Shown here: positions 204 to 19,051 of the stretch, one piece after another
Layout of the letters: the number at the start of each line of letters is the position of its first letter
Position numbering within the stretch: the first letter of the stretch is position 1
Source of the DNA: a virus
Length of the DNA stretch: 22,739 bases
Virus record (IMG/VR): IMGVR_UViG_3300044859_001114
Location: 1 to 22,739 of that record
Direction: 5' to 3' (one strand)
Translations under genes and position numbers: made by a program
The notes under the pieces: generated by a model
Databases searched by the model: none
Seen by the model: the letters and a program-made list of their open reading frames with translations, nothing else
Told to the model about the DNA's origin: nothing

Positions 204-3200
204 ATGGCAACATCCAATAAAGTATTCGTTTCACCTGGAGTATACACTTCAGAACGTGATTTATCATTTGTAGCACAAAGCGTAGGTGTTACTACATTAG
301 GTATTGTGGGAGAAACATTAAAAGGTCCCGCTTTCGAACCTATATTCATAACAAATTTTGATGAGTTCCAAGCAGTGTTTGGAGGAACATTACCTGAAAA
401 ATTTGTTAACACTCAAATTCCAAAATACGAAGCGGCTTATATCGCTAAATCTTATTTACAACAATCAAATCAGTTGTTTGTAACAAGAGTGTTAGGTTTG
501 TCGGGTTATGATGCGGGTCCGTCTTGGTCAATTATTTCAGTTGCTAACGTAAATGGAGTTACTGTTGAACAAGATAGTACTGTATCTCCTGTTACTGTTA
601 CATTTACAGGAAGTACAGGTACAACTGCAGTATCATTTGGTTCGTTCTCTTCAGCAATATTTAATAATGACTTAAATGACGCTCAAACATTATCGGGTGG
701 TTCTACAACTACAATTCAATCACAGATTAACACTTTTGTTAAATCAGTAATGAGTAGTCAATCAACAAGTGGAACTTCAGCTTATGTGTTTGGTACTTTG
801 GATGATACAACATATAATACCTTAACAGGTGCTGGATATACAGGTTTAACTAACGTATGGAATGTACCATCAATGAAAGATGCTAATACTTCATATTCAA
901 GTAGAAACAATGATTTTTGGTATTATTCACAGTTTGACCCAACAACAGGTAATAACTACAGTGGTTATTCATTCAGTGTTGCGGTTGGTTCGTTATCGGG
1001 TAGTGCTTTTGGTACTGTAGGACAATTTTCAGGTTCAGTTACAATATCCGCAAGTACACAAGTTGGTACCGCATTTACAGATTGGAATAATGTTGTTTTA
1101 GCAACTTTACGTTCAAGAGGTATTTCACCTTATAGTGACTCAACAAATCCTGATTATCAAGTTACAGGTTCAACAGATGTAATTATTGATTTGTCAGGTG
1201 TTTATTCAGGAACAACAAAAACACCTTATGGGGCATTTGCAATTTCAGGTATAACATATGAAGGTGAAACATTTAACTTTAAAACATCACTTGATGAGAC
1301 AGATACAAATTATGTTTCAAAAGTATTTGGATTATCTAACTTCGGAAAAAATAGAACTGATGTTCCTTTATTTGTTGAAGAAGAATATAGTAGTATGTTA
1401 AACTATGGATACAAAATGGGTTATGTTAGAGGTATTGGTAGTTCTTTAGTTGATTTACCATCGGCTCAAGATGACAATTCAACAAACACATCAATTGGTT
1501 GGTATTTAGAACAATATCAAACACCTGAAACACCATATCTTGTTTCCGAATTACGTGGTAACACAGTTTACGACTTATTTAAATTTATATCAATTTCTGA
1601 CGGTAACGCAGCAAACGCTGAAATAAAAATTTCAATTTTGAATGTTTCTTTTAATAACGGAACTTTTGATGTTGGAATTAGAAGTTTTGATGATACAGAC
1701 CAAAATCCTGTTTTCTTAGAAAAGTTTACAAATTGTTCTATGAACCCAGCTAACAATAGTTTCATTGGTGTTAAAATAGGAACTAGTGATGGTGAATATC
1801 AGGTTCGTTCTAAATATGTAATGTTAGAATTAAATCCTGAAGCACCTGTAGACGCATTACCTTGTGGATTTAGAGGTTACCCATTAAGAACATATAGCGG
1901 TGTAAATTCACCATTCCCAATATATAAAACACAATATGAAACTACAGGAGAACCAACATTCTATCCACCATTTGGTTCACAACAAGTAAGTTCAGGAGAT
2001 AAGATAAACAGAACATACTTAGGTATATCCAATACTGTTGGTATCGACCAAACATATTTTGATTACAAAGGTAAACAAAATCCTAATGATTTGGCAACTG
2101 CAACAAGTTCAAATCCTTGGGCATATTTGTCAAAAGGTTACCATTTAGACTCAGGAGCAACTGTTGTTACAATACCTAACACATATAGTACTTCAGGTAC
2201 TTCAGCATTTGAAGTTGGTAACTATCCGTTTACTTCAGAACCAACAGACCCAACAAGTCCATATTATAGACTTAGTGGTAGAAAATTCACTTTGGTTCCT
2301 GCTGGTGGTTTTGATGGTTGGGATATCTACAGAGAATACAGAACAAACGGTGATAACTTTATTGTTGGTGGTTCAGGTTTCTTAAGAGGTTTCGCACCAA
2401 CATCACAATTCCCTACCGCTACAGGTTGGGGGGCGTTCAAGAAAATAACAGTTCAAGGAAACTCAACTGATTGGGCGAACACTGATTATTACGCATACTT
2501 GTTAGGTCAACAGACATTCGCAAACCCACAAGCGGTTAACATTAACATATTTGTAACTCCAGGTATTGATTTCGTATCAAACTCAAATCTTGTAGAAGAT
2601 GCTATTGATATGATTGAAAATGAAAGAGCGGATTCATTATACATTATGACATGTCCTGACTACAACATGTTTGTTCCTACGAGTACAAATGTAAACGACG
2701 CATACTTCCCACAAGAAGCGGTAGATAATTTGGAAAATACTGGAATAGATTCTAACTATACTTGTACATATTATCCTTGGGTATTAACAAGGGATACAGT
2801 AAACAACACACAAATTTACCTTCCACCAACTGCGGAAGTTTGTAGAAACTTGGCTTTAACTGACAACATAGCATTCCCTTGGTTCGCATCTGCGGGTTAC
2901 ACAAGAGGTTTAGTGAATTCAATTAAAGCAAGAAAGAAACTAACTCAAGAAGATAGAGATGTACTTTATCAAGGTCATATTAACCCAATTGCAACATTCT
3001 CTGATGTTGGAACAGTTATTTGGGGTAACAAGACAACTCAAATCGCTGAATCAGCACTTGATAGAATTAACGTTAGAAGATTGTTGTTACAAGCTCGTAA
3101 GTTAATTTCAGCAGTTGCGGTTAGATTGTTGTTTGAACAAAATGATGATAAAGTAAGACAAGATTTCTTGGATTCTGTTAACCCAATATTAGATTCAATT

Positions 3201-3371
3201 AGACGAGATAGAGGTTTGATTGACTTTAGAGTTGTTGTTACAAACACACCTGAAGACTTAGACAGAAACCAAATGACAGGTAAGATTTACCTTAAACCAA
3301 CAAAAGCTCTTGAATTCATTGATATTGAATTCTTGATTACACCATCAGGAGCATCATTTGAAAACATTTAA
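204..3371 (+). CDS. 18: contractile tail sheath protein (T4 gp18-like), enlarged
   Basis: This is the contractile sheath subunit that polymerises around the tail tube and shortens to drive it into the host. The N-terminus (about residues 8-110) has the sheath pattern, including VFVSPGVYTSE. The last ~260 residues carry the most conserved part: a PWFASAGYTRG segment near 890, then INPI and SALDRINVRRLL around 950-960, and a C-terminal IYLKPTKALEFIDIEF strand pair that forms the inter-subunit handshake in known sheaths. At 1055 aa it is about 400 residues longer than T4 gp18 (659 aa). The excess sits in the middle, about 110-780, rich in Ser, Thr, Gly, Asn and Tyr, and is probably surface-exposed inserted domains. 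Start ATG at 204 follows an A-rich leader. It heads the tail cluster and is followed by a GC-rich hairpin. Confidence 0.95.
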   Translation: MATSNKVFVSPGVYTSERDLSFVAQSVGVTTLGIVGETLKGPAFEPIFITNFDEFQAVFGGTLPEKFVNTQIPKYEAAYIAKSYLQQSNQLFVTRVLGLSGYDAGPSWSIISVANVNGVTVEQDSTVSPVTVTFTGSTGTTAVSFGSFSSAIFNNDLNDAQTLSGGSTTTIQSQINTFVKSVMSSQSTSGTSAYVFGTLDDTTYNTLTGAGYTGLTNVWNVPSMKDANTSYSSRNNDFWYYSQFDPTTGNNYSGYSFSVAVGSLSGSAFGTVGQFSGSVTISASTQVGTAFTDWNNVVLATLRSRGISPYSDSTNPDYQVTGSTDVIIDLSGVYSGTTKTPYGAFAISGITYEGETFNFKTSLDETDTNYVSKVFGLSNFGKNRTDVPLFVEEEYSSMLNYGYKMGYVRGIGSSLVDLPSAQDDNSTNTSIGWYLEQYQTPETPYLVSELRGNTVYDLFKFISISDGNAANAEIKISILNVSFNNGTFDVGIRSFDDTDQNPVFLEKFTNCSMNPANNSFIGVKIGTSDGEYQVRSKYVMLELNPEAPVDALPCGFRGYPLRTYSGVNSPFPIYKTQYETTGEPTFYPPFGSQQVSSGDKINRTYLGISNTVGIDQTYFDYKGKQNPNDLATATSSNPWAYLSKGYHLDSGATVVTIPNTYSTSGTSAFEVGNYPFTSEPTDPTSPYYRLSGRKFTLVPAGGFDGWDIYREYRTNGDNFIVGGSGFLRGFAPTSQFPTATGWGAFKKITVQGNSTDWANTDYYAYLLGQQTFANPQAVNINIFVTPGIDFVSNSNLVEDAIDMIENERADSLYIMTCPDYNMFVPTSTNVNDAYFPQEAVDNLENTGIDSNYTCTYYPWVLTRDTVNNTQIYLPPTAEVCRNLALTDNIAFPWFASAGYTRGLVNSIKARKKLTQEDRDVLYQGHINPIATFSDVGTVIWGNKTTQIAESALDRINVRRLLLQARKLISAVAVRLLFEQNDDKVRQDFLDSVNPILDSIRRDRGLIDFRVVVTNTPEDLDRNQMTGKIYLKPTKALEFIDIEFLITPSGASFENI

Positions 3372-4534: not shown

Positions 4535-5023
4535 ATGGCTGATTTATTAATGAAAATGCCCGACCCATACGAACCGAAACGAATCAATCGATTTATTCTT
4601 ACGTTTCCATCTTCTTTGGGTATTAATTCTTGGTATGTTGAATCAACAGCACGTCCAAGTATAACAATAAAATCAACAGAAATACCATTTTTGAACACAA
4701 AAACATATGTTGCGGGTCAATTTGAATGGGGTGAAATTAATGTTACATTCCGTGACCCTATTGGACCATCAGCAGCACAGGCATTGATGGAATGGGTACG
4801 TTTACACGCTGAATCAGTTACAGGTCGTATGGGATATGCTGCGGGGTATAAAAAAGACATTACATTAGAAATGTTAGACCCAACTGGAGTTGCGGTTGAA
4901 AAATGGATAATGCAAGGTTGTTTTTTAACTAAAGCTGATTTCCAAGGATTGGATTATGGACAAGACGGTTTACAAAAAATACAAGTTTCTATGAGACCTG
5001 ACCGTTGTATTTTGGTTTATTAA
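4535..5023 (+). CDS. 19: tail tube protein (T4 gp19-like)
   Basis: A 162-aa protein, the same size as T4 gp19 (163 aa), forms the inner tube through which DNA passes. It has the family layout: N-terminal PDPYEPKRINRFILTFP leading into the first strands, a central EWGEINVTFRDPIGPSAAQ segment (about 67-85), and a C-terminal GLDYGQDGLQKIQVSMRPD strand region. Position two genes after the sheath matches the T4 order 18-19, apart from the inserted small ORF and HAD gene. Start ATG 4535 follows aataagat, a leader shared with other genes here. It is immediately followed by a strong terminator, which fits the need for far more tube than hub subunits. Confidence 0.93.
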   Translation: MADLLMKMPDPYEPKRINRFILTFPSSLGINSWYVESTARPSITIKSTEIPFLNTKTYVAGQFEWGEINVTFRDPIGPSAAQALMEWVRLHAESVTGRMGYAAGYKKDITLEMLDPTGVAVEKWIMQGCFLTKADFQGLDYGQDGLQKIQVSMRPDRCILVY

Positions 5024-5054: not shown

Positions 5055-5083
5055 AAAGCCAGGACTAACCCTGGCTTTTTTTT
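5055..5083 (+). terminator. intrinsic terminator/attenuator abutting the next start codon
   Basis: AAAGCCAGG (5055-5063) and CCTGGCTTT (5070-5078) form a perfect 9-bp stem with loop ACTAAC, followed by T to 5083. The next gene's ATG begins at 5084, directly after the last T. This is a textbook intrinsic terminator shape. Since there is no space for a promoter between it and the following start, it probably acts partially, lowering transcription of the downstream assembly genes relative to the tube gene. Confidence 0.85.
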
Positions 5084-5842
5084 ATGAATAACGAAAAAGA
5101 ATACGGACAAATGAATTTTAACCTACCACACGATGTGGTACCACTTCCTTCACAAGGAATTTTTTACAAAAATAAAAAGAAAACTGTTAAAGTAGGTTAT
5201 TTAACCGCATTAGATGAAAATTTATTATTATCTAATAATTTTGGTGGTTCAGATTTAATTTCACAATTATTAAGAAATAAAGTTTTTGAACCTGACTTAA
5301 GAATTGATGATATGTTAACGGGAGACATTGAAGCAATTTTATTATTTTTAAGAAACACAGCATTCGGGACAAACTATGGTGTTTCCGTTTTAGACCCAAT
5401 AACAGGAAAAAGGTTTGAATCAGTTGTTGATTTAAGTGAAATGAACATAAAAAAAGTAGAACAAAAACCAGACGAACACGGATTTTTTACCACAGTTTTA
5501 CCAACATCAAATGACACGGTTCAAATTAAGTTATTAACTTACGGTGAAGAAGCAATAATAGATAAAGAATTAAGTGTTTATCCAAACGGAATAACAAAAC
5601 CAATAATTACAAGAAAATTAGAATCTCAAATAGTTTCAGTTAATGGTTCTACAGATAGGAATATGATATCAACATATATTACAATGATGCCAATCGCTGA
5701 TTCAAAATTTATTAGAAAATTTTCATCTGACGTTGAACCAAGATTAGATTTAAACAAAAAAATACAAACCCCGTCAGGAGAACTAATTGATGTTGCCATC
5801 AATTTTGGGGTAGAGTTTTTTCGGCCTTTCTTCGCAATATAG
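5084..5842 (+). CDS. 26: T4 gp26-like baseplate/tail assembly protein, zero-frame product
   Basis: The 252-aa product matches the T4 baseplate gp26 family (Pfam T4_baseplate type) in pattern: an N-terminal NLPHDVVPLPSQGIFY, a KTVKVGYLTALDENLLLS segment (about 34-51), an acidic helix with DIEAILLFLRNTAFG (about 84-98), and a C-terminal NFGVEFF. T4 gp26 (208 aa) acts in assembly of the baseplate hub. The start at 5084 lies directly against the terminator T-run. An in-frame ATG at 5108 (MNFNLPHDVV) is a good alternative and may be the true start. The frame closes with TAG, the only TAG ending a complete gene here. Coding-like sequence continues in the +1 frame beyond that stop, so this is probably the short member of a frameshifted pair. 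It lies just upstream of the tape measure gene. Confidence 0.8.
   Translation: MNNEKEYGQMNFNLPHDVVPLPSQGIFYKNKKKTVKVGYLTALDENLLLSNNFGGSDLISQLLRNKVFEPDLRIDDMLTGDIEAILLFLRNTAFGTNYGVSVLDPITGKRFESVVDLSEMNIKKVEQKPDEHGFFTTVLPTSNDTVQIKLLTYGEEAIIDKELSVYPNGITKPIITRKLESQIVSVNGSTDRNMISTYITMMPIADSKFIRKFSSDVEPRLDLNKKIQTPSGELIDVAINFGVEFFRPFFAI
5816..5824 (+). other. candidate programmed +1 (or -2) ribosomal frameshift site, TTT-TTT-CGG
   Basis: In the gp26-like frame the codons are GAG TTT TTT CGG. A tRNA-Phe (anticodon GAA) on the second TTT can slip +1 to TTC, its better match, while the A site waits on CGG, an arginine codon that looks very rare in this AGA-dominated sequence. A -2 slip on the T6 run would reach the same frame. 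Six codons later the zero frame ends in TAG (5840-5842), while the new frame stays open to 5975. This is inferred from sequence; no protein evidence is available. Confidence 0.6.
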
Positions 5843-5975
5843 TAAAGTAATATTAGACGAATTATATTTTTTAATTAAAGACGGATTTACATATTCCGAC
5901 TTAATGTCAATGCCCACATATCAAAGAAAATATTTTTTGGGTAAAATATTGGAAAGACACGATATAGACAAATAA
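5823..5975 (+). CDS. C-terminal extension of the gp26-like protein, reached by frameshift
   Basis: This frame is open from just after an upstream TAG (5811-5813) to TAA at 5973-5975. From the proposed +1 slip it encodes 50 residues (GLSSQYSKVILDELYF near the start, then YSDLMSMPTYQRKYFLGKIL). The peptide is helical and amphipathic, with ordinary codon use and a MPTYQRKYF motif, and so looks like real protein. Its first ATG is only at 5904 and gives 23 residues; no ATG, GTG or TTG precedes it, so the upstream half needs frameshifting to be made. The fusion would be 296 aa (+1) or 297 aa (-2). The position directly ahead of the tape measure is where lambda-type gpG/gpGT and other tail chaperones are encoded. 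An undetected one-base sequencing error is the main alternative. Confidence 0.65.
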   Translation, partial: GLSSQYSKVILDELYFLIKDGFTYSDLMSMPTYQRKYFLGKILERHDIDK

Positions 5976-6006: not shown

Positions 6007-7686
6007 ATGATGTTACAAACACCTGACCCCAATAAAATTCAAGAAACCCAAGGATTATACACCAAATTAGAAGGTACTATAAAATCTGCTGGTAATTTAC
6101 AAAAAAATTTAATAAGTGGTTTTAAAGAATTAGTTGATAACGTATCTAAATTTGATGATGAGTTAATTAAAGCATCAAGAAGTTTAGGACAGAGTATGGA
6201 ATATGCTCAAAGTTTAGAACAAAGACTTGGAAGAGTATCACAAAAAATGATTCAAATAGGATACGATTCAAATGACGTTATTGCGTTATTTAAATCAATG
6301 TCTGACCAAATTGGTAGAACAGTTGATTTTTCTGAGAAAGCTTTATTTAATATGGCTCTTCTTAAGAGGGTTGGTGTTGCGGATGAATCAATCAAAAGTT
6401 TTAATAAATTATTTGATAGTATTGGTGGAACATTTGAAGAAGCGACAATATTACAAATGGATTTGGTAAATCAAGCCAAAAGTTACGGATTAAATGTTGG
6501 TCAATTTATGACTAGTGTTGCAGGACAATTAACAAAAATTAATCAGTACGGGTTTCCAAATGGTGTTAAAGATTTGGGTGAAATGGTTGCAAAGTCCAAA
6601 TTATTAGGCGGTAATATAGAATTAGCGGCAGGATTAGCCGATAAAATAATGGGGAGTCCTGAAACGGCATTAGACTTGGCTGCTCAATTACAAACATTAG
6701 GTGGTTCATTCGCGTCATTAGGCGACCCAATGGAATTACTTTTTTTGGCACAAAATGACTTGGCAGGTTTAAATGACAAACTAATGGATGCAACTAAAGG
6801 ACTTGCAACATTCAATAAAGAAACAGGACAGTTTGAAATTGGTATTAATGAACGTATAAGAATAGGTAAAGTTGCGAGTGCATTTGGTACTGATTCCAAA
6901 TCAATTATAGAAAACGCTACAAAACTTGCTAAACAACAAGAAATTATAAAACAATTTGATTTGTCAGGCGCTTTTAAAGGTATAAAACCTGAAGACCAAC
7001 AAACTTTGGCCGCTTTTGCTCAAATTGGTAAGGGAGGTAAAGTAACAATTGAAGGTCAATCATTAGAAGAATTTACAAGAAGTGGTCCAAAAGCAATGAA
7101 CGACCTTCTTGAAAAATTAAAAGGAACTGGAAGTAATTTACTTACACAAGAAGATGGTATTAAAAATAATATAAATGTAACACAACAACAATCTTCAATA
7201 CTTGAAAAGGTAAACATACAACAACAACAATATAATGATACATTAAGTTTAGCCGCAATAACAACAGGAAACTTTAACAAGGTTTTAGAAACCGCGTCAA
7301 CTCAACTTGTTAATTTATATAAAGTTGGTACATTGTCTAAAGGAATTGCAGAAGCGTCTGTTAGTGATTTAATTGGTAAAGCTAAAACTCAATTGGGCTC
7401 ACTAACCGCTAGTACTGAGTCTAATGGTAATATCGGACTTGATAAATTAGTAGAAATATTAAGCGCGACTGCGGCAGCTAAAGGTACAAATACAAATATT
7501 GAAGTTACATCCAAAGAACCGATTAAAATTGAAATTACATCGGCGTTTAATATTGATGAGGTTGTTAGAGGAGCATTGGAAAAAGCGATGAATCAAAAGA
7601 TAAAAGATGCGGTAATAGAACAAACTACTGGTAAAACTGGTGCCGCAGTACCATATGCTAGCGGGAAATCGGGAACTTCAAATTAA
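6007..7686 (+). CDS. tail tape measure protein (functional counterpart of T4 gp29)
   Basis: This 559-aa, mostly helical protein is the likely ruler and tube-lumen protein that fixes tail length and connects to the hub. The N-terminal ~90 residues are a long amphipathic helix rich in Lys, Gln and Leu. The middle is Ala/Gly/Leu-rich (for example ALDLAAQLQTLGGSFASLG), Gln-rich runs (IQQQQ) fall near residue 400, and the C-terminus ends in a flexible Gly/Ser/Thr tail. It contains no cysteine and no enzymatic motif. Its length is close to T4 gp29 (590 aa), which would predict a tail of roughly T4 length if the usual ~1.5 angstrom per residue holds. It follows the frameshifted gp26-like gene and precedes the baseplate genes. 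The start has tandem ATGs (6007 and 6010). The identification rests on composition, size and position more than on a conserved motif. Confidence 0.75.
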   Translation: MMLQTPDPNKIQETQGLYTKLEGTIKSAGNLQKNLISGFKELVDNVSKFDDELIKASRSLGQSMEYAQSLEQRLGRVSQKMIQIGYDSNDVIALFKSMSDQIGRTVDFSEKALFNMALLKRVGVADESIKSFNKLFDSIGGTFEEATILQMDLVNQAKSYGLNVGQFMTSVAGQLTKINQYGFPNGVKDLGEMVAKSKLLGGNIELAAGLADKIMGSPETALDLAAQLQTLGGSFASLGDPMELLFLAQNDLAGLNDKLMDATKGLATFNKETGQFEIGINERIRIGKVASAFGTDSKSIIENATKLAKQQEIIKQFDLSGAFKGIKPEDQQTLAAFAQIGKGGKVTIEGQSLEEFTRSGPKAMNDLLEKLKGTGSNLLTQEDGIKNNINVTQQQSSILEKVNIQQQQYNDTLSLAAITTGNFNKVLETASTQLVNLYKVGTLSKGIAEASVSDLIGKAKTQLGSLTASTESNGNIGLDKLVEILSATAAAKGTNTNIEVTSKEPIKIEITSAFNIDEVVRGALEKAMNQKIKDAVIEQTTGKTGAAVPYASGKSGTSN

Positions 7687-7738: not shown

Positions 7739-10700
7739 ATGACATCAAGTCCATTATCGTTTTCTGCGACACAAAGTCTAAGATTAAAACTTATGGCTAT
7801 GAACTTAGAACCTTACTTCGTTAAGGAATCTAGTGCACCACAAATAAATAGGGCTGATGTCGGTACAAAAGAAACACAGTGGATTGAAAGTCCATTGGTA
7901 AATCAACCTGATTTAGATAATGTTGGTTTACTACCACAAGCAAAATTAAATATATTAAATCAATATGGTCCTGAAAATGGTAGAGGTCCTAATGCTTTAT
8001 TTAAAAATTTAGGTACAAAATCAAACCAAGGACCTTTTAATTTTCAAACTGATAGTACGTCTAAGTTTGCCGAATCAGAACAAGAACAAAAAGAATTGTT
8101 AGTTCTTAATAGATTTGGACCGCAAGACGGGTGGAGTGACGCTTCATCGGAATTGGAAGTATCGATTCTTGAACCAACAATCAGAGATGAGTATGTTTCA
8201 GACAGTACAAAGCCAAATTTATTTAGACCATCATCTTATTCTTCATCACAAATATTATTAGATAAAGACCCAACAGGTTCAGACGGATTACTATCACAAG
8301 ATTCGGTATTAACACAATTAGCTGCAACAAAACTAAGAAGTTTATTTGAAGAATCAATCGCGTATGAAATTCAACAAGAAACCGTTGGTAGAGCTAACGG
8401 TGTAGCGGCATTAAAAGACCCTTATTTGGGACTTAAAATAGCTGTAGGTAGGTCACCATTAATTGAACCCGATTGGAACGTCACAGTACCTGATACGGTA
8501 ATAGGAACTGCAGCAGATTTCATTTCAAGAATTACTGGTGTATATTCACCGTTCTCATATATTCCTGGTGATTATTTTTCACCTGTACAACCAACAAGTC
8601 TTTTAAATCAGGCAGTAAATTTTGTAACGGGTTTATTTGGTTTTCCAAATGTTTTACCAACAAGAAAAACCGCTTCAGATATTTTTTTAGCGTATACAGG
8701 ACAAGGAACCAAAAAGTTATTATTTGGTAGTCTCGCATTAAATAGATTCGTACCTGATTATAGATTCAACTTTATTAATCAAGTTGGTTTATTCGCGCCA
8801 AGACCAAATTATTATATTGGAAGTAGAACTTCAGACCCATTAGATATTGTTTCACCTTCAGGTGAAGTACCCGTAAACGAATATGGTGAAGAAGTAGAAA
8901 CAAATGTATATGGACCGAGTTTACTTGGAAATCTTTATGAAAATGATATTGAATTCAAATTTGGATTAAACGGTACATCTACAATTGATGGTGGAGGTAT
9001 TCAAGGAGGATTTACTTGGGTTTCACCAAAATATAAAGGAAACGCTGGTTTTAAAGTGGGTAAAGGTGGTGATGCAAAAGGATTTGACCAAAACTTCCCA
9101 CCAATATCCGCACAATATAATAATTCAGAATCTACACAATATGCATTAAGAAAAGGTTCTATTTTAGATGAAACACAAAGGTTAATTAATTCACAACCTG
9201 GCGGTCAAAAAAGGTTACAACACGTTGGTAATGCAATTGACCAAGTATCTAAAGTTTTTAATGATGGATATAAAGAAATAACAAAAGGTTCAAGAGTTAT
9301 AAGATATGTTGATAATAATGGAACTTTTGTGGGTGAAGAATACGGTAGAGTTTTTGCCAAAGATATTCCATATTATGAAAATTCTAAATTACAGAAGATT
9401 GATGGAAATATTAGAAAAAATCCATATTCTATTTTAGATAAAACATATAACTTAAATATGTACCCAACTTTAGGTCCTGACTCAACATCAATTGAAGGCG
9501 GTAGGGTTAAAAAATATATGGTATCAATTGAAAACCTTGCGTGGAGGACTTCAAGAAGACCAGGATTAACATATGCTGATTTACCTGAAAGCGAAAAAGG
9601 TCCAAACGGAGGTAGAATTATGTGGTTCCCACCATATGATTTAGGATTTTCAGATAACTCTACTGTTTCTTGGGAGCCAAATACATTCTTAGGAAGACCT
9701 GAAGACATTTATACATATAAAGGAACATCAAGAGGTGGTAGTTTATCATTTAAAATGGTTGTTGACCACCCATCAATTATGAATTTAGTTGTTAATCAAG
9801 TATTATCAAACTCAAGTTCTAGCGTAGTTGCTGACCAAGTTTTAGAATCTTTCTTTGCAGGACTTACAAAATTCGACGTTTATGAATTAGGTAAAAGATA
9901 TCAAAACTTTTCAATTACAGAATTACAACAATTACAAGACACTATTAATAAATCAAGTGACCCTGAAAAAATAAAACAAGCGGTAACATCAAATTTAAAT
10001 AAAGGTGGTACAGGTGCTGGTGGACCTATGACATCCAATTCTTCAGTTGGTACTCAGGATTATAAACCACAACTTACACAGTATATTAACAATTCTCAAT
10101 TTTATTTTGACTACAACCAAACAGGTGGTGCGTCATACAATGAATCATTGACATCATATGAATCAAATCCACAATTTGTTTCTATAGAACAATCTCAAAA
10201 AACACAAGTAGAGAATTCTAAAAATGTATTAACAAATTTAGCCAATAAAGTAAAAGAAATTTTAAACGTTAATCCAAACGTTAAAATTACTATTGTACTT
10301 AAATCAAACAGTTCATTTAATGAATCAACAAGTGTCAAGGACTCAAGAAATTCTTGTATAGAACAAAGTATTTTAAACATTGTTGGTACCAACCCTAATT
10401 TAACCATTACTAAAACAAGTGGTGCGGATAATGATACAATTGCCCCACAGACAGTACCTTGTAATACAAACACATTAAATAATTATGATGTTGTATCCGT
10501 AGGATGTAGAAGAGTTGTTATACAAGATATTATAGAAATACCATTACCTAACATTACAAATCCAAATGGTGGAGTAGTTACAAGCCCATCAACAGTTGTT
10601 GGAAATATTGGTTCACAAAACACATTACTTAATCAACTTAATAACGCATCAAGTAATCAGGCAAGAAACCAATTACAAACAATATCTAAAGAAGTTTTAA

Positions 10701-12379
10701 GAAAATTGTTAAATGAATCAAATTACTTCCAATTCGTAAAAGAAAGCAATCCTTATGTTTACGATTCACTAAGAGAAAAACTTAAATTTTTTCACCCCGC
10801 TTTTCACTCTACAACACCTGAAGGACTTAACTCAAGATTAACATTCTTAATGCAATGTACAAGACCTGGTGATACAATACCAACTAAAAAAAGTGACGGT
10901 ACTTTTATTGATAAAGACGCAAGAAACACTGCGTTCGGAGCACCACCTGTTTGTGTTATAAGAATTGGTGACTTCTATCATACCAAAGCAATTATTAATA
11001 GTGTTAGATTTACATATGATGAAAAAACATTGGATTTAAATCCCGAGGGTATCGGTGTTCAACCAATGATTGTAAGTGTTAGTGTTGAATTCAATTTTAT
11101 TGGTGGTCAAAGTTTAAGAGGACCTGTGGAAGAATTACAAAACGCATTATCATTTAATTTCTTTGCTAATACTGAAATGTACGATGAAAGGGCAACTGTG
11201 TTGGATGTTTCAGCATATGATAAAGAATTTATTGACAAAACCGAAGAAACTGGTGATACCGCAAGAAATACTAATGGTGATTATAGTGCTGAAGGCGGTG
11301 AATTTATTGGTAAATTAAAAGGTGAATTAAAATTTAGTGCAACTACAGGCGAAAACGATTACCAAAACATTGTAGAAACATTATTAGATGTTTCCGAAGA
11401 AACATATGATTCAACTTATGATAAATTACTTCAAGTTTTTAATGAATATAATTGGATTATATTACAAATATATACCACAAATAGAATTTACGGAACAGGT
11501 AAATTAGAATCACAAGACGTTCAAATTTTTGGAAAATCGGAAGGATATACCGATAAAATAAATGAATTATTTGATAATTTAAAAACAAGTATAAGTAATA
11601 AGGATTTAACTTTATTCAAAGTACCTAGTCTTGTAAATGATGTAAATAAAACATCCATTTTACAAACACAATTAAACAATTTAGTTGATTCAAAAAGAGC
11701 TTCATTTATAGATAATTTAGATTCTGCAACAAACGACCTTTCACAATCTCAAATACCTTATGTTAGAGTAATTGACAAATTAAATTTCCTTTCAGGAAAT
11801 GCCGACGGTATTGTAGATAAAACAGGTATTGCTAAAATTTATAATACAATATCCGCAACTACAATAACCGATTTAGTAACAGATACAAAATTAATTGTTC
11901 AGTCTACAGGAAAACAAATAGACGATTTAAAATCAACAACAACACAAATAATACCAGACACAACTAATTATAGTTTTGATAGTATTAATACGATAGGTAC
12001 TACATTTGATAATAATGCGGACAAACAGTTTTGTACTATCTTTAGTAAAGACTTAATTTTAGATTTTACTACAATTCAAACTCAAGTTTTAGGTGAACTA
12101 AATACTAAACCATTTAATACCGAATTAACAAAAGTTTTGAGAGACAACTATCAAACTAAATGTAAACAATTATCAACTGATGGAAAAAAACGATTCAAAA
12201 AAGAAAAATTTACCACAAAATTACCTTCAGATTGGAACAAACTTAAAAAGAAAGACAGACCTAATGGTCTTGAATTACAGAACCCACAAGACTCTGCAAA
12301 ACAAGAACAGTTATTGAACTTATACTCAAATTCAAACACTAATACTGATAACACATTTAACGGAAAAGTAACATTCTAA
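7739..12379 (+). CDS. large baseplate / tail-tube-initiator-like protein with OmpA-like insertion
   Basis: The 1546-aa product is not a clear homologue of any single T4 protein. N-terminal ~1-300 has two short similar units (LNQYGPENG and LNRFGPQDG) and hydrophobic helices such as AADFISRITGVYSPF. Around 627-680 there is a segment IMWFPPYDLGF and then LGRPEDIYTYKGTSRGGSL. Around 1076-1152 lies GDFYHTK, GVQPMIVSVSVEF and LQNALSFNFFANTEMYDERA. Both segments resemble the tube-like folds of tail-tube initiators and caps such as T4 gp48/gp54. Between them, about 785-930, is a candidate OmpA-like peptidoglycan-binding domain. The last 400 residues are helical. It follows the tape measure, and its TAA overlaps the next ATG by one base. 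Most likely a central baseplate component where the tube starts; the exact T4 equivalence is my inference. Confidence 0.65.
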   Translation: MTSSPLSFSATQSLRLKLMAMNLEPYFVKESSAPQINRADVGTKETQWIESPLVNQPDLDNVGLLPQAKLNILNQYGPENGRGPNALFKNLGTKSNQGPFNFQTDSTSKFAESEQEQKELLVLNRFGPQDGWSDASSELEVSILEPTIRDEYVSDSTKPNLFRPSSYSSSQILLDKDPTGSDGLLSQDSVLTQLAATKLRSLFEESIAYEIQQETVGRANGVAALKDPYLGLKIAVGRSPLIEPDWNVTVPDTVIGTAADFISRITGVYSPFSYIPGDYFSPVQPTSLLNQAVNFVTGLFGFPNVLPTRKTASDIFLAYTGQGTKKLLFGSLALNRFVPDYRFNFINQVGLFAPRPNYYIGSRTSDPLDIVSPSGEVPVNEYGEEVETNVYGPSLLGNLYENDIEFKFGLNGTSTIDGGGIQGGFTWVSPKYKGNAGFKVGKGGDAKGFDQNFPPISAQYNNSESTQYALRKGSILDETQRLINSQPGGQKRLQHVGNAIDQVSKVFNDGYKEITKGSRVIRYVDNNGTFVGEEYGRVFAKDIPYYENSKLQKIDGNIRKNPYSILDKTYNLNMYPTLGPDSTSIEGGRVKKYMVSIENLAWRTSRRPGLTYADLPESEKGPNGGRIMWFPPYDLGFSDNSTVSWEPNTFLGRPEDIYTYKGTSRGGSLSFKMVVDHPSIMNLVVNQVLSNSSSSVVADQVLESFFAGLTKFDVYELGKRYQNFSITELQQLQDTINKSSDPEKIKQAVTSNLNKGGTGAGGPMTSNSSVGTQDYKPQLTQYINNSQFYFDYNQTGGASYNESLTSYESNPQFVSIEQSQKTQVENSKNVLTNLANKVKEILNVNPNVKITIVLKSNSSFNESTSVKDSRNSCIEQSILNIVGTNPNLTITKTSGADNDTIAPQTVPCNTNTLNNYDVVSVGCRRVVIQDIIEIPLPNITNPNGGVVTSPSTVVGNIGSQNTLLNQLNNASSNQARNQLQTISKEVLRKLLNESNYFQFVKESNPYVYDSLREKLKFFHPAFHSTTPEGLNSRLTFLMQCTRPGDTIPTKKSDGTFIDKDARNTAFGAPPVCVIRIGDFYHTKAIINSVRFTYDEKTLDLNPEGIGVQPMIVSVSVEFNFIGGQSLRGPVEELQNALSFNFFANTEMYDERATVLDVSAYDKEFIDKTEETGDTARNTNGDYSAEGGEFIGKLKGELKFSATTGENDYQNIVETLLDVSEETYDSTYDKLLQVFNEYNWIILQIYTTNRIYGTGKLESQDVQIFGKSEGYTDKINELFDNLKTSISNKDLTLFKVPSLVNDVNKTSILQTQLNNLVDSKRASFIDNLDSATNDLSQSQIPYVRVIDKLNFLSGNADGIVDKTGIAKIYNTISATTITDLVTDTKLIVQSTGKQIDDLKSTTTQIIPDTTNYSFDSINTIGTTFDNNADKQFCTIFSKDLILDFTTIQTQVLGELNTKPFNTELTKVLRDNYQTKCKQLSTDGKKRFKKEKFTTKLPSDWNKLKKKDRPNGLELQNPQDSAKQEQLLNLYSNSNTNTDNTFNGKVTF

Positions 12380-12696
12380 TGGAATATTTTAACAGATATC
12401 AACAATTTTTAGTGGACGGTGAACAAACTGTTTTACCATATGTAACTTTACCAAGAAAAAGTACAGATGTTAAATACATATACAGAGCACAACAAACTAG
12501 ACTAGATAAAATAAGTCAAGAATATTATAATAGTCCATATTTTGGTTGGTTAATTATGTTAGCCAATCCTGAATTTGGTGGATTAGAATGGAACATTCCT
12601 GATAATGCTATTATTGTGGTACCATACCCTTTAAATGCGTCAATTCAGGACTATAATAATGCAATAAAGACAAGATTCTATTATTATGGCAGATAA
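12379..12696 (+). CDS. 53: baseplate wedge protein, gp53-like with LysM-type fold
   Basis: This 105-aa protein resembles the LysM-like part of T4 gp53, which ties baseplate wedges together around the hub. Residues about 33-85 follow the pattern: YIYRAQQTRLDKISQEYY, then the FGWLIMLANPEF helix, then an IPDNAIIVVPYPL strand, as in LysM domains. At 105 aa it is about half the length of T4 gp53 (196 aa), so accessory regions are missing. The start overlaps the previous TAA by one base (TAATG) and the end overlaps the next gene by 11 bases, so it is almost certainly translated with both large neighbours. In phage baseplates the LysM fold is structural, so peptidoglycan binding should not be assumed. 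Confidence 0.82.
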   Translation: MEYFNRYQQFLVDGEQTVLPYVTLPRKSTDVKYIYRAQQTRLDKISQEYYNSPYFGWLIMLANPEFGGLEWNIPDNAIIVVPYPLNASIQDYNNAIKTRFYYYGR

Positions 12697-15600
12697 TTTC
12701 GGTGGTAGTGAAAATATATTTTATACAGATGATGCAAACATCGTTTTAATAGACCCAAATTCAATAATAGACAGTAAAGGTCTAAAAAAAGATAGGGTAA
12801 TAAAACAAGAAAACCTTGTTATGTATGCCAATTTAGAAGTTGGTGCGGTACCAAGAACTAAATTATCTGTTGGTGAAAGTGTTGATAAAGCAATTAATAA
12901 TGTTACAATTGCGTCAATTAACTTTTTAAAACCACAAGGAAAAAATTCTTTTGATACTAGTTATACCGATGAATTTACAGGAGGCAGAAATTTACAAGGT
13001 GCTGTAAATCAACGTTCATTTGATTTTAATAATAACCCACAACAAGTTAATTATGTGGATACACAAGTTTTAGGTATTAAAAACATAAGTGTTGATATTA
13101 TGTTTAATGGTATACCAACTGTTAGTATGCAATTGGTTGACGTACAAGGTAGAGCATTATTTGAAACAGGAGGTAATTCACCATATTCAGTATTTTTGTA
13201 TTATCCATACCCACTTTTTAAATTAACCCTAAAAGGTTTTTATGGTAAGGCAATTCAATATGAATTAATGTTAAGAAGTTTTAATGCTTCTTTTGAATCT
13301 TCTTCAGGTAACTATTTAATTGATTTACAATTTATAGCAAGAACAAGTGCAATATTAGATGATGTTAGACTTGGTTATTTGTTTGCATTACCAAATATGT
13401 ATCCAAAATATACGGTACCTGTAACAACAAATAATAATACATCCCAACAAGCAGTTGCAAGTCAAAATCAAATAGGAACAAACACAACAACGGTATCAAC
13501 AAAACAATTAAACAGTGTTGGATATAGTAAAATAAAACAAGTTTTTGATGAATACAGAAACAATGGACTAATCGATAAAAATGTACCTACATTAACTTTG
13601 GAAGAGATGGGTATTAATCTTTCAAAGTACACACAATTTTTAAATGAACAATTTGATAAACTTGATTTTACTAGAGTTGTTGGACTTAAAAAATATCGTG
13701 AAAGTATCTCAAAATACAAAACTGAAATTTCAAAATGGCAATCAGATTATATTAATACCGAAGATAAGATTATTTTAAATGACAACTCTGTGATGTACGG
13801 ACTAAAACAAACAGTTACAGAAACTAATACATCTAACAGCACTTCAATAGGAAACAATCCAAGTGTAGCTGCAAGAGCCAATGTTACTTTAACAGGAATA
13901 ACAGAATCAAACAAAAAAACTATAAACAATTTCCCAATATGGGGTAAAGAAATAAACAAACCTGAAAATTTTTTCAAATACGATTTATTCACTAGAAAGT
14001 TTACAGAAACAGATATTAATTTTGCAAAAACATATGAGGCAATAACACCAAATAAATTTACAAATGCAAATAGCCCACAATTTAAAAATTTTAAAAGGGA
14101 GTTAATTGAAGGTTTAAAATTAAAAGGTACATTACCAAGACCTGCATCTACAAGTACACCAAACCCATATTATTATACTTTTGAAGAATTCGAGGAAGAA
14201 ATCGAAAATTTAAATACGGTTATAGACCAAAAAGACTTACAAGAAAATGAATTACTTAACGAAACGTTTCAAAATAAATTAAAATCTAGTTCTAACCCAA
14301 CTAATTTAAATTTTAGACCAACAATAAGAAATGTTGTAGGTGTTATAATGGCATCTGTTGATGCTTTTTATAGATTAATGGATGATGTACACAAACAAGC
14401 TTGGAATGTAAGAAATGATAAACAAAGAATAAAAGCGATTATAAACAAAGGAATTCCATCGCAAGATGGTAAAGACGCTGTTGAAAGCAGTCAAAGAAAT
14501 AATATTACAAATATTGTTTACCCATGGCCACAATTCGTACAGAAAAAAGAACAAAAGGGTGTTACAGAGTATCAAGTTACATACCCTGGTTCTAAATCTG
14601 TGGTTAATTTTACAAATGGTTACGATACAAGAGTTTGGCCTGAAGTAGAATTTGTTGAACAATTTTTAAATGGTGTTACTCAAAAAGAATTGACATATGA
14701 TAATGAAAATCAAAATTCACCAACAATCGCATTACCATATACACCATTATCGGCAATAGAATTTGCATTTAAAAATAGAATATATAACGGTGAAAATGAT
14801 AATCCCGATGCAATTTACCCTGTTTATGAATTATACGAAAGAATTTTATTGAATGCGTATTATTCAGGTTTACATTATACAGATACAAATCAAACATCAG
14901 ATTTAATATTTGCGGGTTCGGATTTAGAATTAAGTAACTTAAAGAACGCTGGTATTCCCGAAGTAAGTGATTTAAAAAAAGTTTTTAAGGATAGATTACC
15001 GTCAGAATCTTTATATGATTATTTAAAATCAACAGGTGGACAAAATGAAGAGGGACCTGATTGGAACAGATTTAAAAACCAAGAATTTATTACACCATAT
15101 CTAAATGAAAAAGTAGTAAACTCAACTGAAATTTTTTCTGAAAAAAACTACAGAAAATTAAGTAGAAACCCAATACAATTAGAATCACAAGGTAAACTAA
15201 CAAATTTTTTATCGGCAAACACTAGTAGTCAAACAAGTATATTAGACACATATCCATTTATTATACCCGATTTTCAAAATAGAATGGAAAATCCTAAAGG
15301 TAAAAATTATTACGAAACAATATACACATACGGTTTAGACAGTAAAAACTTATTCATTAACAATGAAAAAACACCAATAATACCTTTAAGTAAAAATACA
15401 TCGACTAAAAACGGATTCAATTCAACAGCCGAAAAATCTGCAATAAATTTGTTTTTTGAAACAAGATATGACAAACCAACTGAAAGGTATTTAACTGAAG
15501 GAAACTTTGAACCAAGTTCTCCTGGCATAACACAGAAACAAACAACAAGTATTTTTAACACGCCAATGTTTATGAATGGTGTGATGGAAGCAGCAACAAA

Positions 15601-18600
15601 CACATCAGAAACACAATTCACTAAACTAGCGTTTTTATTTTTAAACTCACTACCACTTTCAACATTCTATGAAAGATATTTAAATTCTAGTATAACTGAC
15701 ACAGAGACACAAAAAAGTGATTACATATTTGCGTCAATGACAAAATTTTCTGCAGTACATAAAATACCATATGCTTTTTTATTAAAAATAGGTTCTATAT
15801 GGCACAGATATAAAACATACATAAATACTAATGTTGATATCTTGGATAGTATTTGGAAAGATTTTGATTATGTAAAGGCATATACTAATGGTGTAGGAAC
15901 GGATGATACTTACCAAGTTTATACTAATAATGATACATCCACTACTGAACCATTTAAATTAAATGGTACTGATAGTTTAAATCTTGGTTTTTATCCTGAA
16001 TTGGTTAAAAACTTCTATAGTCTTTTTACAAATCAAAATAATTTTCCTGAATCATTAACTGACGCATCTAAAGAAAATTTAAAAATTGTAAGATATAATC
16101 CTGTTTCATTACCAACAGGTGCTATTAACACATACTACACATATTTTAAAATAACAGACAAATATTTACAATATTTTGGACCGTCAAATAGTAATAAAAT
16201 ATTAGTGTTACCATCTGCGGGATATCTACCTTTTGAACAAGCTTATTATCAATATACAAATGAAGGTGTAAAAACAAAATCAGAATTAAATGTCCCACAA
16301 GTATATAACGGTTCTGCAAGATTATTTTGGGATTCACCTAATTACGGTTGGTTTGATGCAACAAATCTATCTAAACCAAGACCCGACCAACATTTAAAAT
16401 ATATAAAGCCATTACAACAAGACATAAATAAACAATTTGAGTTCATACTTTCAACAAAAAACCCAACATATTCATCAATTGAAGATTTATTTGGTACTTT
16501 TGATTTTTCTCAATTAGAAAAATTTGAAAAAGAGTTTTTAGATTTTTGTAAAAAAGGTGGTAAGTCATCTATTTTTACAGGTACTGACGATATTCCATCA
16601 GAGTATGCGAACTTCCAAGAATTATTGAAAAAACTGTTTATTGTAGACGTGTCTGATATTGCAGATATAAAAAACTTTTCTAATACTCATGCAACAAGTA
16701 TGAGTTCAGAAATTAATAAATTTTTAAATATAAACGTACATTTAAAAATTGGTAATCCAAAACAATTTGATAGAATACAGTTTGGTAATTTTATTTCTGC
16801 ATCAACAAGTTCAGTACTTGCAATGAAACCTGTTAGTGCAATTACATATGGTGAATATGTTAAAAACACATTACCTGGTGCAGGACAAACAGTAACATTA
16901 CAAGAATCTAAAGATAACAATGAAGAAGCTTGGAAAGCTCTTAATTTATACATAGGCCCCTCAACAATACCAAATTTAGGATTTGGTAATACTTCATACA
17001 TATACGATTTCTTTATTGATAATAACATAGAATTTACCGCACAAAACGTTGAAAGATTACATAAATTAATAAAAATTTATGCAACACAAAAATATCTAAA
17101 AGGTTCATATGATTCTAATACATTTAAAAATGATATAACAAATATCTTACAAAATGTTTACAATAAAAGAACAAATATCGAATTACAAGTAAGAGGTAAA
17201 TTAAATACAGTATTAACTGAAGGAACCGCTGCTGAATCCCCAAAAAAATCGACATTTGATGGAGACAGCTCAAAGTTAGAAATGTGGGAAGTTTTTAAAG
17301 CAATTAATGACAAATGGGTTGCGGGTATTAATTTTTCAGAAACAGGACCTGATAGAAAAGTATTGTTTGAAGAATTTTTATTCTTTGATAGAAGTAATCG
17401 AGACATTGGTGACGATTTTATTATTAATGTTGAATCTATTAGAAAATATTGTGTGTGGGAAAACTCAAACACATCTGTAATGAGTTTAATAAGACAATTA
17501 CTTTCAGAAAATAGAATGAATTTCTTTGTAATGCCAGCGTACATTAATTTTTATGGTAAACCATCAAGACAGTCAACAACAAGAAATCAAACTATTTTAA
17601 ATAATGCGAATGACACTTTTAGTACATTTGGTTATGTTGATTACACAGATTCAGGACCTAAATTTTTGTGTCAATATATTGGGAAACCATCAGAAACATT
17701 ATCAATGGATAACGACCCAAAATATCCTTTCAATAGTGATTCTTTTGATATGGGTACAACCGCAGGAAACCCATTAAGAAATACGATAACACCAGCGTCA
17801 AATAAACAATTTCAAAACAATAAAGCGGTTGGTTTTATTGTGGATTTTGGTACTGTAAATCAAAGTGTATTTAAATCTGTAGAAATTGCACAAAATCAAA
17901 ACGTAACATCTTCGGAACAAATACAGACTATTGTTGACATGGGTAGGTCAGGTGGAAATAAAAAGACGATGCAACAATCAACATCACTATTTGAATTGTA
18001 TAAAAATAGAACATATGATTGTACATTAAAAACGTTTGGTAATGTTATGTTACAACCTACAATGTATTTTGTGTTAAGACATATGCCAATGTTTAATGGT
18101 ACATATGTTATTAGAAGTGTTAAACATAATATAGGACCTGGTGTTTTTAACACGGAAGTAAGAGGACAAAGATTATCTAAGTTTACTAATGTTAATGTAA
18201 CTGATGAGTTAGCGTCAATTAATCAAGATTTTACAAAAAAACTAAATGATAAGGTTAGAAATTTAACAGATAACAATCAAGTTGTTACATTTAATTCAGA
18301 AAGCGGTCAATATGTAACAGGACAAGAATCTAAAGATATTGGTATTTCAGGTAGAACACCGTATCAAGGTTTAATATCTACTTCTGTTGATACTGAATTA
18401 CAAGCATGTCAAACAAGTTTATGGGGCGCGATTAACACTCCACCGTCAGAACAATCAAAACTTTCTGGTAAAACATTTAATGAAAACACTAACTTTACTA
18501 GAGATGAATTATTCCGTTTATTAAAAGGAAATGTTAAGGATAAAAATATGAGATTATTCCTTTGGGCATTGTTCTGTTTATCAAATTCAACAAGCACAGA

Positions 18601-19051
18601 AAAAGATACATCGGAAAAAACTGAATATACTATTAAACAAAACAATTTATTTGGTGCAACTGCCGATGTAAAATGGAATGAAGAATTGTTAAGATTTGTT
18701 GATGGATACAGATGTTTAAATAACACAAGTAAAGGTGTTATACCATTTTTAGATTTTAAATCACCAACAGAAAGTATATTATTTACCAATGGTTATTTTG
18801 AACAATTATTACCCACATATATAACAAGTAATAATACTGGAATATGTTTAAATTTCCAAGTTACAGGAACCACAACAAAAGATATTAATTGTACCGCAAT
18901 TACATTTATTAAACTATGGTATGAGAAATGGTATACATCAGGACCAACCGCAACAACTAATATAAATGAAAATACTTCTGAATATGTTGGATGGACTAAT
19001 AACGTCAAATATGCGATAACCCAAGCAATATTAAACGGACTTTTGAATTAA
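12686..19051 (+). CDS. giant baseplate hub-like protein (gp27/gpD-like) with extra C-terminal domain
   Basis: At 2121 aa this is the largest gene here. N-terminal ~130-240 contains an ISVDIMFNGIPTVSMQLVD strand and FYGKAIQYELMLRSFN, resembling the first tube-like domain of hub proteins. About 1700-1840 contains a second hub-type domain with RTYDCTLKTFGNVMLQP, MFNGTYVIRSVKHNIGPGVF and TEVRGQRL, the pattern seen in gp27/gpD hubs (TFGN, GxYxIxxVxHxI, F.TE..G.R). The ~1450 residues between them are Asn/Thr/Tyr-rich and unassigned. The last ~230 residues form a separate domain with QNNLFGATADVKW, VDGYRCLNN and FIKLWYEKWYT, reminiscent of NLFG-type glucosaminidase or lysozyme-like domains, but a catalytic glutamate cannot be assigned. 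It may combine hub and cell-wall-degrading roles that T4 splits between gp27 and gp5. The start overlaps the gp53-like gene by 11 bases; T4 gp27 is only 391 aa. Confidence 0.7.
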   Translation: MADNFGGSENIFYTDDANIVLIDPNSIIDSKGLKKDRVIKQENLVMYANLEVGAVPRTKLSVGESVDKAINNVTIASINFLKPQGKNSFDTSYTDEFTGGRNLQGAVNQRSFDFNNNPQQVNYVDTQVLGIKNISVDIMFNGIPTVSMQLVDVQGRALFETGGNSPYSVFLYYPYPLFKLTLKGFYGKAIQYELMLRSFNASFESSSGNYLIDLQFIARTSAILDDVRLGYLFALPNMYPKYTVPVTTNNNTSQQAVASQNQIGTNTTTVSTKQLNSVGYSKIKQVFDEYRNNGLIDKNVPTLTLEEMGINLSKYTQFLNEQFDKLDFTRVVGLKKYRESISKYKTEISKWQSDYINTEDKIILNDNSVMYGLKQTVTETNTSNSTSIGNNPSVAARANVTLTGITESNKKTINNFPIWGKEINKPENFFKYDLFTRKFTETDINFAKTYEAITPNKFTNANSPQFKNFKRELIEGLKLKGTLPRPASTSTPNPYYYTFEEFEEEIENLNTVIDQKDLQENELLNETFQNKLKSSSNPTNLNFRPTIRNVVGVIMASVDAFYRLMDDVHKQAWNVRNDKQRIKAIINKGIPSQDGKDAVESSQRNNITNIVYPWPQFVQKKEQKGVTEYQVTYPGSKSVVNFTNGYDTRVWPEVEFVEQFLNGVTQKELTYDNENQNSPTIALPYTPLSAIEFAFKNRIYNGENDNPDAIYPVYELYERILLNAYYSGLHYTDTNQTSDLIFAGSDLELSNLKNAGIPEVSDLKKVFKDRLPSESLYDYLKSTGGQNEEGPDWNRFKNQEFITPYLNEKVVNSTEIFSEKNYRKLSRNPIQLESQGKLTNFLSANTSSQTSILDTYPFIIPDFQNRMENPKGKNYYETIYTYGLDSKNLFINNEKTPIIPLSKNTSTKNGFNSTAEKSAINLFFETRYDKPTERYLTEGNFEPSSPGITQKQTTSIFNTPMFMNGVMEAATNTSETQFTKLAFLFLNSLPLSTFYERYLNSSITDTETQKSDYIFASMTKFSAVHKIPYAFLLKIGSIWHRYKTYINTNVDILDSIWKDFDYVKAYTNGVGTDDTYQVYTNNDTSTTEPFKLNGTDSLNLGFYPELVKNFYSLFTNQNNFPESLTDASKENLKIVRYNPVSLPTGAINTYYTYFKITDKYLQYFGPSNSNKILVLPSAGYLPFEQAYYQYTNEGVKTKSELNVPQVYNGSARLFWDSPNYGWFDATNLSKPRPDQHLKYIKPLQQDINKQFEFILSTKNPTYSSIEDLFGTFDFSQLEKFEKEFLDFCKKGGKSSIFTGTDDIPSEYANFQELLKKLFIVDVSDIADIKNFSNTHATSMSSEINKFLNINVHLKIGNPKQFDRIQFGNFISASTSSVLAMKPVSAITYGEYVKNTLPGAGQTVTLQESKDNNEEAWKALNLYIGPSTIPNLGFGNTSYIYDFFIDNNIEFTAQNVERLHKLIKIYATQKYLKGSYDSNTFKNDITNILQNVYNKRTNIELQVRGKLNTVLTEGTAAESPKKSTFDGDSSKLEMWEVFKAINDKWVAGINFSETGPDRKVLFEEFLFFDRSNRDIGDDFIINVESIRKYCVWENSNTSVMSLIRQLLSENRMNFFVMPAYINFYGKPSRQSTTRNQTILNNANDTFSTFGYVDYTDSGPKFLCQYIGKPSETLSMDNDPKYPFNSDSFDMGTTAGNPLRNTITPASNKQFQNNKAVGFIVDFGTVNQSVFKSVEIAQNQNVTSSEQIQTIVDMGRSGGNKKTMQQSTSLFELYKNRTYDCTLKTFGNVMLQPTMYFVLRHMPMFNGTYVIRSVKHNIGPGVFNTEVRGQRLSKFTNVNVTDELASINQDFTKKLNDKVRNLTDNNQVVTFNSESGQYVTGQESKDIGISGRTPYQGLISTSVDTELQACQTSLWGAINTPPSEQSKLSGKTFNENTNFTRDELFRLLKGNVKDKNMRLFLWALFCLSNSTSTEKDTSEKTEYTIKQNNLFGATADVKWNEELLRFVDGYRCLNNTSKGVIPFLDFKSPTESILFTNGYFEQLLPTYITSNNTGICLNFQVTGTTTKDINCTAITFIKLWYEKWYTSGPTATTNINENTSEYVGWTNNVKYAITQAILNGLLN

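Follow-up and report, generated by a model that had tools for sequence, protein, structure and literature searches.

How is a gene read when its frame closes at a TAG codon while a second, protein-like frame runs on past the stop, with no start codon near its beginning? This question is raised by a gp26-like gene in a viral DNA stretch of 22,739 nucleotides (IMGVR_UViG_3300044859_001114; hereafter, the window), whose source looks like a phage of bacteria. The best explanation, which we consider very probable, is that a +1 programmed frameshift at TTTTTTCGG yields the longer of two forms of a gp26/gp51-type tail assembly chaperone, in a gene that belongs to a distant T4-like contractile phage.

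The gp26-like gene, its neighbours and its predicted product

The gp26-like gene sits between the tail tube gene and the tape-measure position (Table 1), and an annotated tape measure follows it in Flavobacterium phage immuto and Listeria phage LIS04. The gene order in LIS04 is sheath, tube, gp26-like gene, tape measure; immuto has the same order, with the tube-sized gene annotated there as a tail completion protein. The window's own 559-aa ORF at the tape-measure position gave no family match under E 0.07 in Pfam and PHROG profile searches and did not resemble the immuto tape measure over the latter's first 907 residues.

Table 1. Features of the window around the proposed frameshift.
Feature	Position	Strand	Basis
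Tail sheath protein	204..3371	+	phrog_23, E 1.6e-58
Tail tube protein	4535..5023	+	phrog_4542, E 4.2e-27
gp26-like protein, putative chaperone short form, 252 aa, stop TAG 5840-5842	5084..5842	+	phrog_150, PF12322
SD-like stretch GGG GTA GAG, candidate stimulator, just 5' of the slip site	5807..5815	+	GGG conservation, duplex energy
+1-frame extension, 53 codons plus TAA (5973-5975), of which ~50 codons could be fused to the short form	5814..5975	+	+1 census, dN/dS
Proposed slip site TTT TTT CGG	5816..5824	+	TTT then T/C in 263/263 +1 loci (among the matches listed)
559-aa protein, tape-measure position	6007..7686	+	assigned by position alone

Other features of the region were recorded alongside. 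The sheath protein has 1055 residues and its best phrog_23 stretch covers residues 756-1052; therefore, its N-terminal part may carry added domains. Two very large tail-region ORFs (7739-12379, 1546 aa; 12686-19051, 2121 aa) had no PHROG match at E 0.001. By eye, a terminator-like hairpin (AAAGCCAGG..CCTGGCTTTTTTTT) occupies positions 5055-5083, directly 5' of the gp26-like ATG; Bacillus phage SP-15 has an annotated terminator between its tube and hub genes (locus L286, 1430-1462). No tRNA genes were found in the window, and a GTDB scan with the gp26-like protein returned 40 pattern matches with no relative among them and, therefore, no host clue.

The first-pass annotation of this DNA had described a gp26-like frame ending in the TAG and a +1 frame open to 5975, the first 27 codons of which hold no usable start. 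Both statements were confirmed on the ORF list and by reading the frames: the frames overlap at GAG TTT TTT CGG (5813-5824), and no ATG, GTG or TTG appears in the +1 frame until 28 codons past the slip codon. The CGG at the site is indeed rare, as the annotation had also held, being used once among the 7010 codons of the 12 main ORFs; that single use is in the gp26-like ORF, as is the only TAG stop among these ORFs. The conceptual +1 fusion has 296 residues. By itself, the open +1 frame of the window is weak evidence, because random sequence with the window's composition would leave a frame open for these 44 codons beyond the stop in 3.4% of cases. Judged by its conservation, on the other hand, the two-frame arrangement is far more than chance would produce.

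What kind of protein would the fusion be? The gp26-like protein matched the baseplate hub family phrog_150 (E 3.5e-10, residues 12-248) in the PHROG profile search, which gives it the T4_baseplate/hub N-domain of the T4 gp26/gp51 hub chaperones; its score with PF12322 (T4_baseplate), 23.8 bits, falls just below the cut-off of 24.5. A search with the gp26 of phage Melnitz reaches T4-type gp26 (25% identity, E 3e-6), and the family is therefore joined to T4 gp26. The extension had no family match better than E 0.008, and that one was to an unrelated-looking family. Neither the HMM nor a profile comparison of the whole fusion detected sequence similarity between the extension and the end of T4 gp51, and a PDB sequence search with the fused-protein profile gave no match. 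PF20546 matched neither the window's record nor any of 14 control genomes, an uninformative result. In the extension alignment (A5), weak matches were seen to the Pfam family DUF6760 (3/15 members, best E 0.049) and to the tail assembly chaperone family phrog_32580 (2/15 members, best E 0.022).

Folding the conceptual fusion with a 34-row alignment (A6) gave a confident model (pLDDT 91.0, pTM 0.86; block means of 89-94 over residues 251-290), in which the extension is predicted to form helices at residues 252-265, 270-275 and 278-295. After re-alignment of PDB matches, the first row was the HK97 tail assembly chaperone 2ob9 (Z 4.9, 87 residues, rmsd 5.7), followed by a row at Z 3.8, 1.1 lower; as a Z under 8 may mean a common arrangement only, this weak likeness of the model to the HK97 chaperone is suggestive only. 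The BFVD matches to the model include the SP-15 baseplate hub subunit (E 2.1e-16), T4-like hub assembly proteins, Gp26 of Aeromonas phage 25 (E 1.6e-5) and, over the whole fusion, the hub assembly catalyst of phage ZZ1, which carries the gp51 name (E 2.4e-4). The initial proposal that the gp26-type protein and its extension may serve as a frameshifted chaperone pair is supported by the gene's position and by phrog_150, and weakly by the fold.

Conservation of the proposed slip site and selection on the extension

Viral contigs were scanned with the 252-aa gp26-like protein, and the best 80 of 123 relatives were taken. The site reads GGGGTN-GA(A/G/C)-TTT-TTT-CG(G/C), with the +1 frame open, in 80/80 of these, and the upstream GGG is found in 81/81 when the window is counted; the extension is complete in 80/81, with one locus (L007) leaving its contig inside it. 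The alignment across the junction that the first-pass annotation had called for thus finds the two frames, the slip site and the overlap conserved among these best 80 of 123 relatives. Seven other contigs (L002-L008) encode a 100% identical gp26-like protein and carry the same site, which rules out the one-base read error, restoring a simple in-frame ORF, that the annotation had named as a possible undoing of its reading. One of the six peptide patterns used in the scan, INFGVEFF, covers the site; codon conservation there was not built into the scan, because the back-translation of a peptide pattern is degenerate.

Codons at the site were compared with those elsewhere in 32 clade members under 95% identity. 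The glycine codon is GGG in 32/32 members, compared with 8.7% of other Gly codons, and the phenylalanine pair is TTT TTT in 32/32, compared with 79% elsewhere. The arginine codon is CGG in 29 and CGC in 3 of the 32, codons that are absent from the other Arg positions; ATC stands at the site in 30/32 (9% elsewhere) and GAG in 22 of 30 Glu codons (14% elsewhere). An invariant single codon was seen in only 3 of 80 other conserved degenerate columns. These results show that the synonymous positions at the slip site are frozen in the window's clade. Much of the CGG-CCT-TTC-TTC stretch is under a second coding constraint from the +1 frame, which need not apply to GGG and ATC.

A search that made no use of the protein gave a similar picture. 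Scanning viral contigs with the DNA motif GGGGTNGARTTTTTTCGG returned at least 119 stretches, namely one already known locus (L030) and 118 others, 11 of which lie on contigs already obtained in the 252-aa protein scan. Among the matches listed, the motif is in register with a +1 extension and preceded by an open frame of more than 100 codons in 116/118 loci; the other two (L171 and L242) end 46 and 43 bases past the motif and have 250 open codons before it.

Judged from substitution ratios, the extension is under purifying selection. Among the 496 pairs formed by the 32 clade members, we used those with pS between 0.1 and 0.65. The median dN/dS was 0.40 for the non-overlapping part of the extension (154 pairs, maximum 1.29) and 0.29 for the gp26-like ORF (384 pairs), with dS in these comparisons at ~1, near saturation.

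What might stimulate a shift here? No stable downstream RNA structure was found: compared with shuffled sequences, the 141 bases around the site showed no greater folding stability (z +1.09). A candidate lies upstream. When the 18 bases before the slip were paired with a 16S rRNA 3' end, the median duplex energy was -9.4 kcal/mol over 28 distinct clade sites, compared with -2.4 over the ORFs, and 1.7% of ORF windows were as strong as the clade median; for the stretch in the window itself, the value was -6.8 kcal/mol. In the other groups the effect was weak, 11 to 26% of ORF windows being equally strong. The SD-like element is therefore not general, because it is strong in the window's clade only, and it is a candidate clade-specific stimulator. 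Bacterial RF2 (prfB) has an SD-like stretch upstream of its +1 site; the window shares this feature at a different spacing. Use of such an element would be uncertain if the window's host were in Bacteroidota, as that of immuto is.

Direction of the proposed shift and rival explanations

To widen the sample, we assembled a census of 273 loci: the window, 262 loci from five protein scans of viral contigs and ten fetched phage records. Besides the scan above, these included scans with the immuto and Mel-JY01 proteins (the best 80 of at least 600 matches each), with LR756508 (20 loci) and with LIS04 (2 loci). Five loci end before the stop of the N-terminal ORF, which leaves 268 evaluable. By HMM, the extension lies in the +1 frame in 263/268 loci among the matches listed and in the -1 frame in three (L086, L301 and L306); two more (L289 and L290) had no HMM match and are -1 by eye. 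The HMM was trained on +1 frames, yet recovered the three -1 cases. The 263 +1 loci are related by descent: they comprise 219 distinct ORF sequences, falling among the matches listed into 152, 55 and 13 clusters at 95%, 70% and 50% protein identity, and one phage, SP-15, is present twice (L286 and L311). They include Microcystis phage Mel-JY01, immuto, LIS04, SP-15, Streptococcus phage GXN1 and Rhodothermus phage RM378.

An in-frame TTT followed by T or C occurs within the last 12 codons in all 263 of these +1 loci (among the matches listed), compared with 498 of 5205 (9.6%) other 12-codon blocks of the same ORFs. The site types include TTT TTT CGG, TTT TTT TGG, TTT CTT TGG, TTT CTA TGG and TTC TTT TGG. 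Two overlapping frames with a conserved shift site are the arrangement of frameshifted tail assembly chaperone pairs, and an overlap that holds a frame-0 TTT with T or C as the next base is that of a +1 P-site slip at UUU_Y. The slip of tRNA-Phe from UUU to UUC put forward in the first-pass annotation is therefore supported.

Could the ribosome instead move two bases back? A -2 shift on the T6 run, as in Mu, was the annotation's alternative and would give a 297-aa fusion with one more Phe. A codon able to re-pair two bases back is present in 208/263 +1 loci among the matches listed, the window's T6 run included. On the other hand, 55/263 of them, in 8 clusters at 70% identity, offer no such pairing (TTT CTT, TTT CTA and TTC TTT), although their extension lies in the same frame. 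The family as a whole therefore cannot depend on a -2 shift and a single family-wide mechanism must be +1, which leaves -2 very unlikely. The site comparison supports +1 as the shared direction, since a tRNA-Phe slip from UUU to UUY could serve all members; in the window, either of the two TTT codons could be the P-site codon. The T6 run might also invite transcriptional slippage, or an error in sequencing or assembly. Slippage would normally call for a longer run, relatives whose site is TTT CTT or TTC TTT lack the T6 altogether, and the arrangement is common to the seven identical-protein contigs and the best 80 of 123 relatives, so that we regard this account as extremely unlikely.

Alternatively, the extension could be a separate small gene, started within the overlap or by reinitiation, whose product acts in trans. 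A small ORF is annotated at this place in the Mel-JY01, immuto and SP-15 records, and separate genes do exist: at L301 and L306 the extension is an ORF with its own ATG, 2 and 5 bases past the stop. The first-pass annotation had counted such ATG-started genes in related phages, where no slippery site is conserved, against a frameshift. They were found, among the matches listed, at these two loci only, where TTT_Y has been lost from the site. The two cases, possibly related, fit a site that is kept for frameshifting. The stand-alone genes (L301 2232-2549; L306 2223-2510) each have a new N-terminal stretch. Elsewhere, a separate gene would often lack a start: among the matches listed, ATG, GTG and TTG are all missing from the +1 frame up to the stop in 70/263 +1 loci, and 145/263 have no ATG, while the window has none of the three for 27 codons past the slip codon. 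It would also leave the conservation of TTT_Y and of the rare CGG without a purpose, and we consider it highly unlikely.

With a +1 frameshift, the locus can be explained as follows. Normal translation would yield the 252-aa short form. A minority of ribosomes would be stalled at the rare CGG, perhaps also by the upstream SD-like GGGGTNGAR, and the P-site tRNA-Phe would re-pair from UUU to the overlapping UUC. Reading of the second frame to its TAA would then produce a long form of ~296 residues with a C-terminal helical domain. We infer that this long form acts as a chaperone that loads the tube protein onto the tape measure. In frameshifted chaperone pairs, the two products arise at a fixed ratio, bind the tape measure and tube proteins and are not part of the virion.

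Relation to T4 and to known frameshifted chaperones

In T4, 26 and 51 are two genes encoded on different strands, whereas this 22.7-kb fragment has one gene with an overlapping frame; a second gp26-like gene may lie elsewhere in the virus, outside the fragment. The T4 genes named by Vladimirov et al. in 2022 are reportedly gp26 and gp51. Tail assembly chaperones and their frameshifting as such are known already. A review covers the lambda-type chaperone frameshift and its role, describes it as widespread, with T4 as the exception, and considers a +1 shift very likely in the archaeal myovirus HSTV-2 (PMC5009743). In lambda gpG/gpGT and the wider group of frameshifted tail chaperones, the shift is -1; in the window it is predicted to be +1 and follows a T4 gp26-like N-domain, and the site differs from the canonical -1 X_XXY_YYZ signal in that the extension is in the +1 frame. 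The PRFect study lists 350 forward positive cases, with training data mostly from chaperone genes, and gives CUU next to a stop codon as a common site of forward shifts (PMC10274946); +1 chaperone shifts as such are therefore not new. The same paper mentions, citing Vladimirov et al. 2022, that some T4-like phages instead carry a short and a fused long gene, and a further report presents a -1 site from Vandenendeviridae and mentions that T4-like phages have poly-T signals for -1 shifts (PMC12846349). The first-pass annotation needs correcting on this point: T4-like tail chaperone genes are already in print according to papers citing Vladimirov et al. 2022. In the literature consulted, where that work is represented through its citing papers, we found no report, for T4-like phages, of a frameshift in gp26 or of a chaperone made by a +1 shift.

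A close likeness is in Kyanoviridae. In S-SSM7, S-RIM50 and Melnitz, a short extension frame likewise comes after a gp26-like ORF; it is annotated as gp51 or hub assembly and ends in the MPWE..YV motif common to these phages and the window's family. The site in these phages is T_TTT_TTC or T_TTT_TTT and their extension is in the -1 frame, whereas that of the window is +1; the short ORF in these three records is probably part of a fusion. A -1 gp26 extension was observed in L396, L397, L290, L398, L289 and L086 (two cyanophages, Melnitz, a Kuttervirus and two jumbo phages). For the slip itself, a near parallel is the influenza A PA-X site UCC_UUU_CGU, a +1 P-site tRNA-Phe slip at UUU_C before CGN (PMC3498833). 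Influenza A is a eukaryotic virus and the likeness is one of mechanism only; TTC_TTT_CGT of Streptococcus phage GXN1 resembles the PA-X site.

What seems new is a +1 UUU_Y site conserved across a family, while the cyanophage and jumbo relatives examined use -1. A broader reading, which we offer tentatively, is that a conserved Phe-Phe pair is the common shift point of gp26/gp51-type chaperones in contractile phages, and that the shift at this point has switched polarity in evolution between -1 (U_UUU_UUY; cyanophages and jumbo phages) and +1 (UUU_Y; the window's lineage, immuto, Mel-JY01, LIS04, SP-15, GXN1 and RM378). The two genes of T4 and the stand-alone genes of L301 and L306 would then be derived escapes from frameshifting, and the SD-like stimulator and the rare CGG trap would be additions made in the window's clade.

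The family would offer a widely sampled bacterial-virus example of a UUU_C-type +1 site, which is of use since sites for forward shifts are difficult to recognise. In the immuto, SP-15, Mel-JY01 and cyanophage records, the small ORF that follows gp26 probably encodes the C-terminal portion of a longer protein. With a frameshift placed where T4 uses separate genes, the gp26/gp51 hub puzzle would become testable through one slip site.
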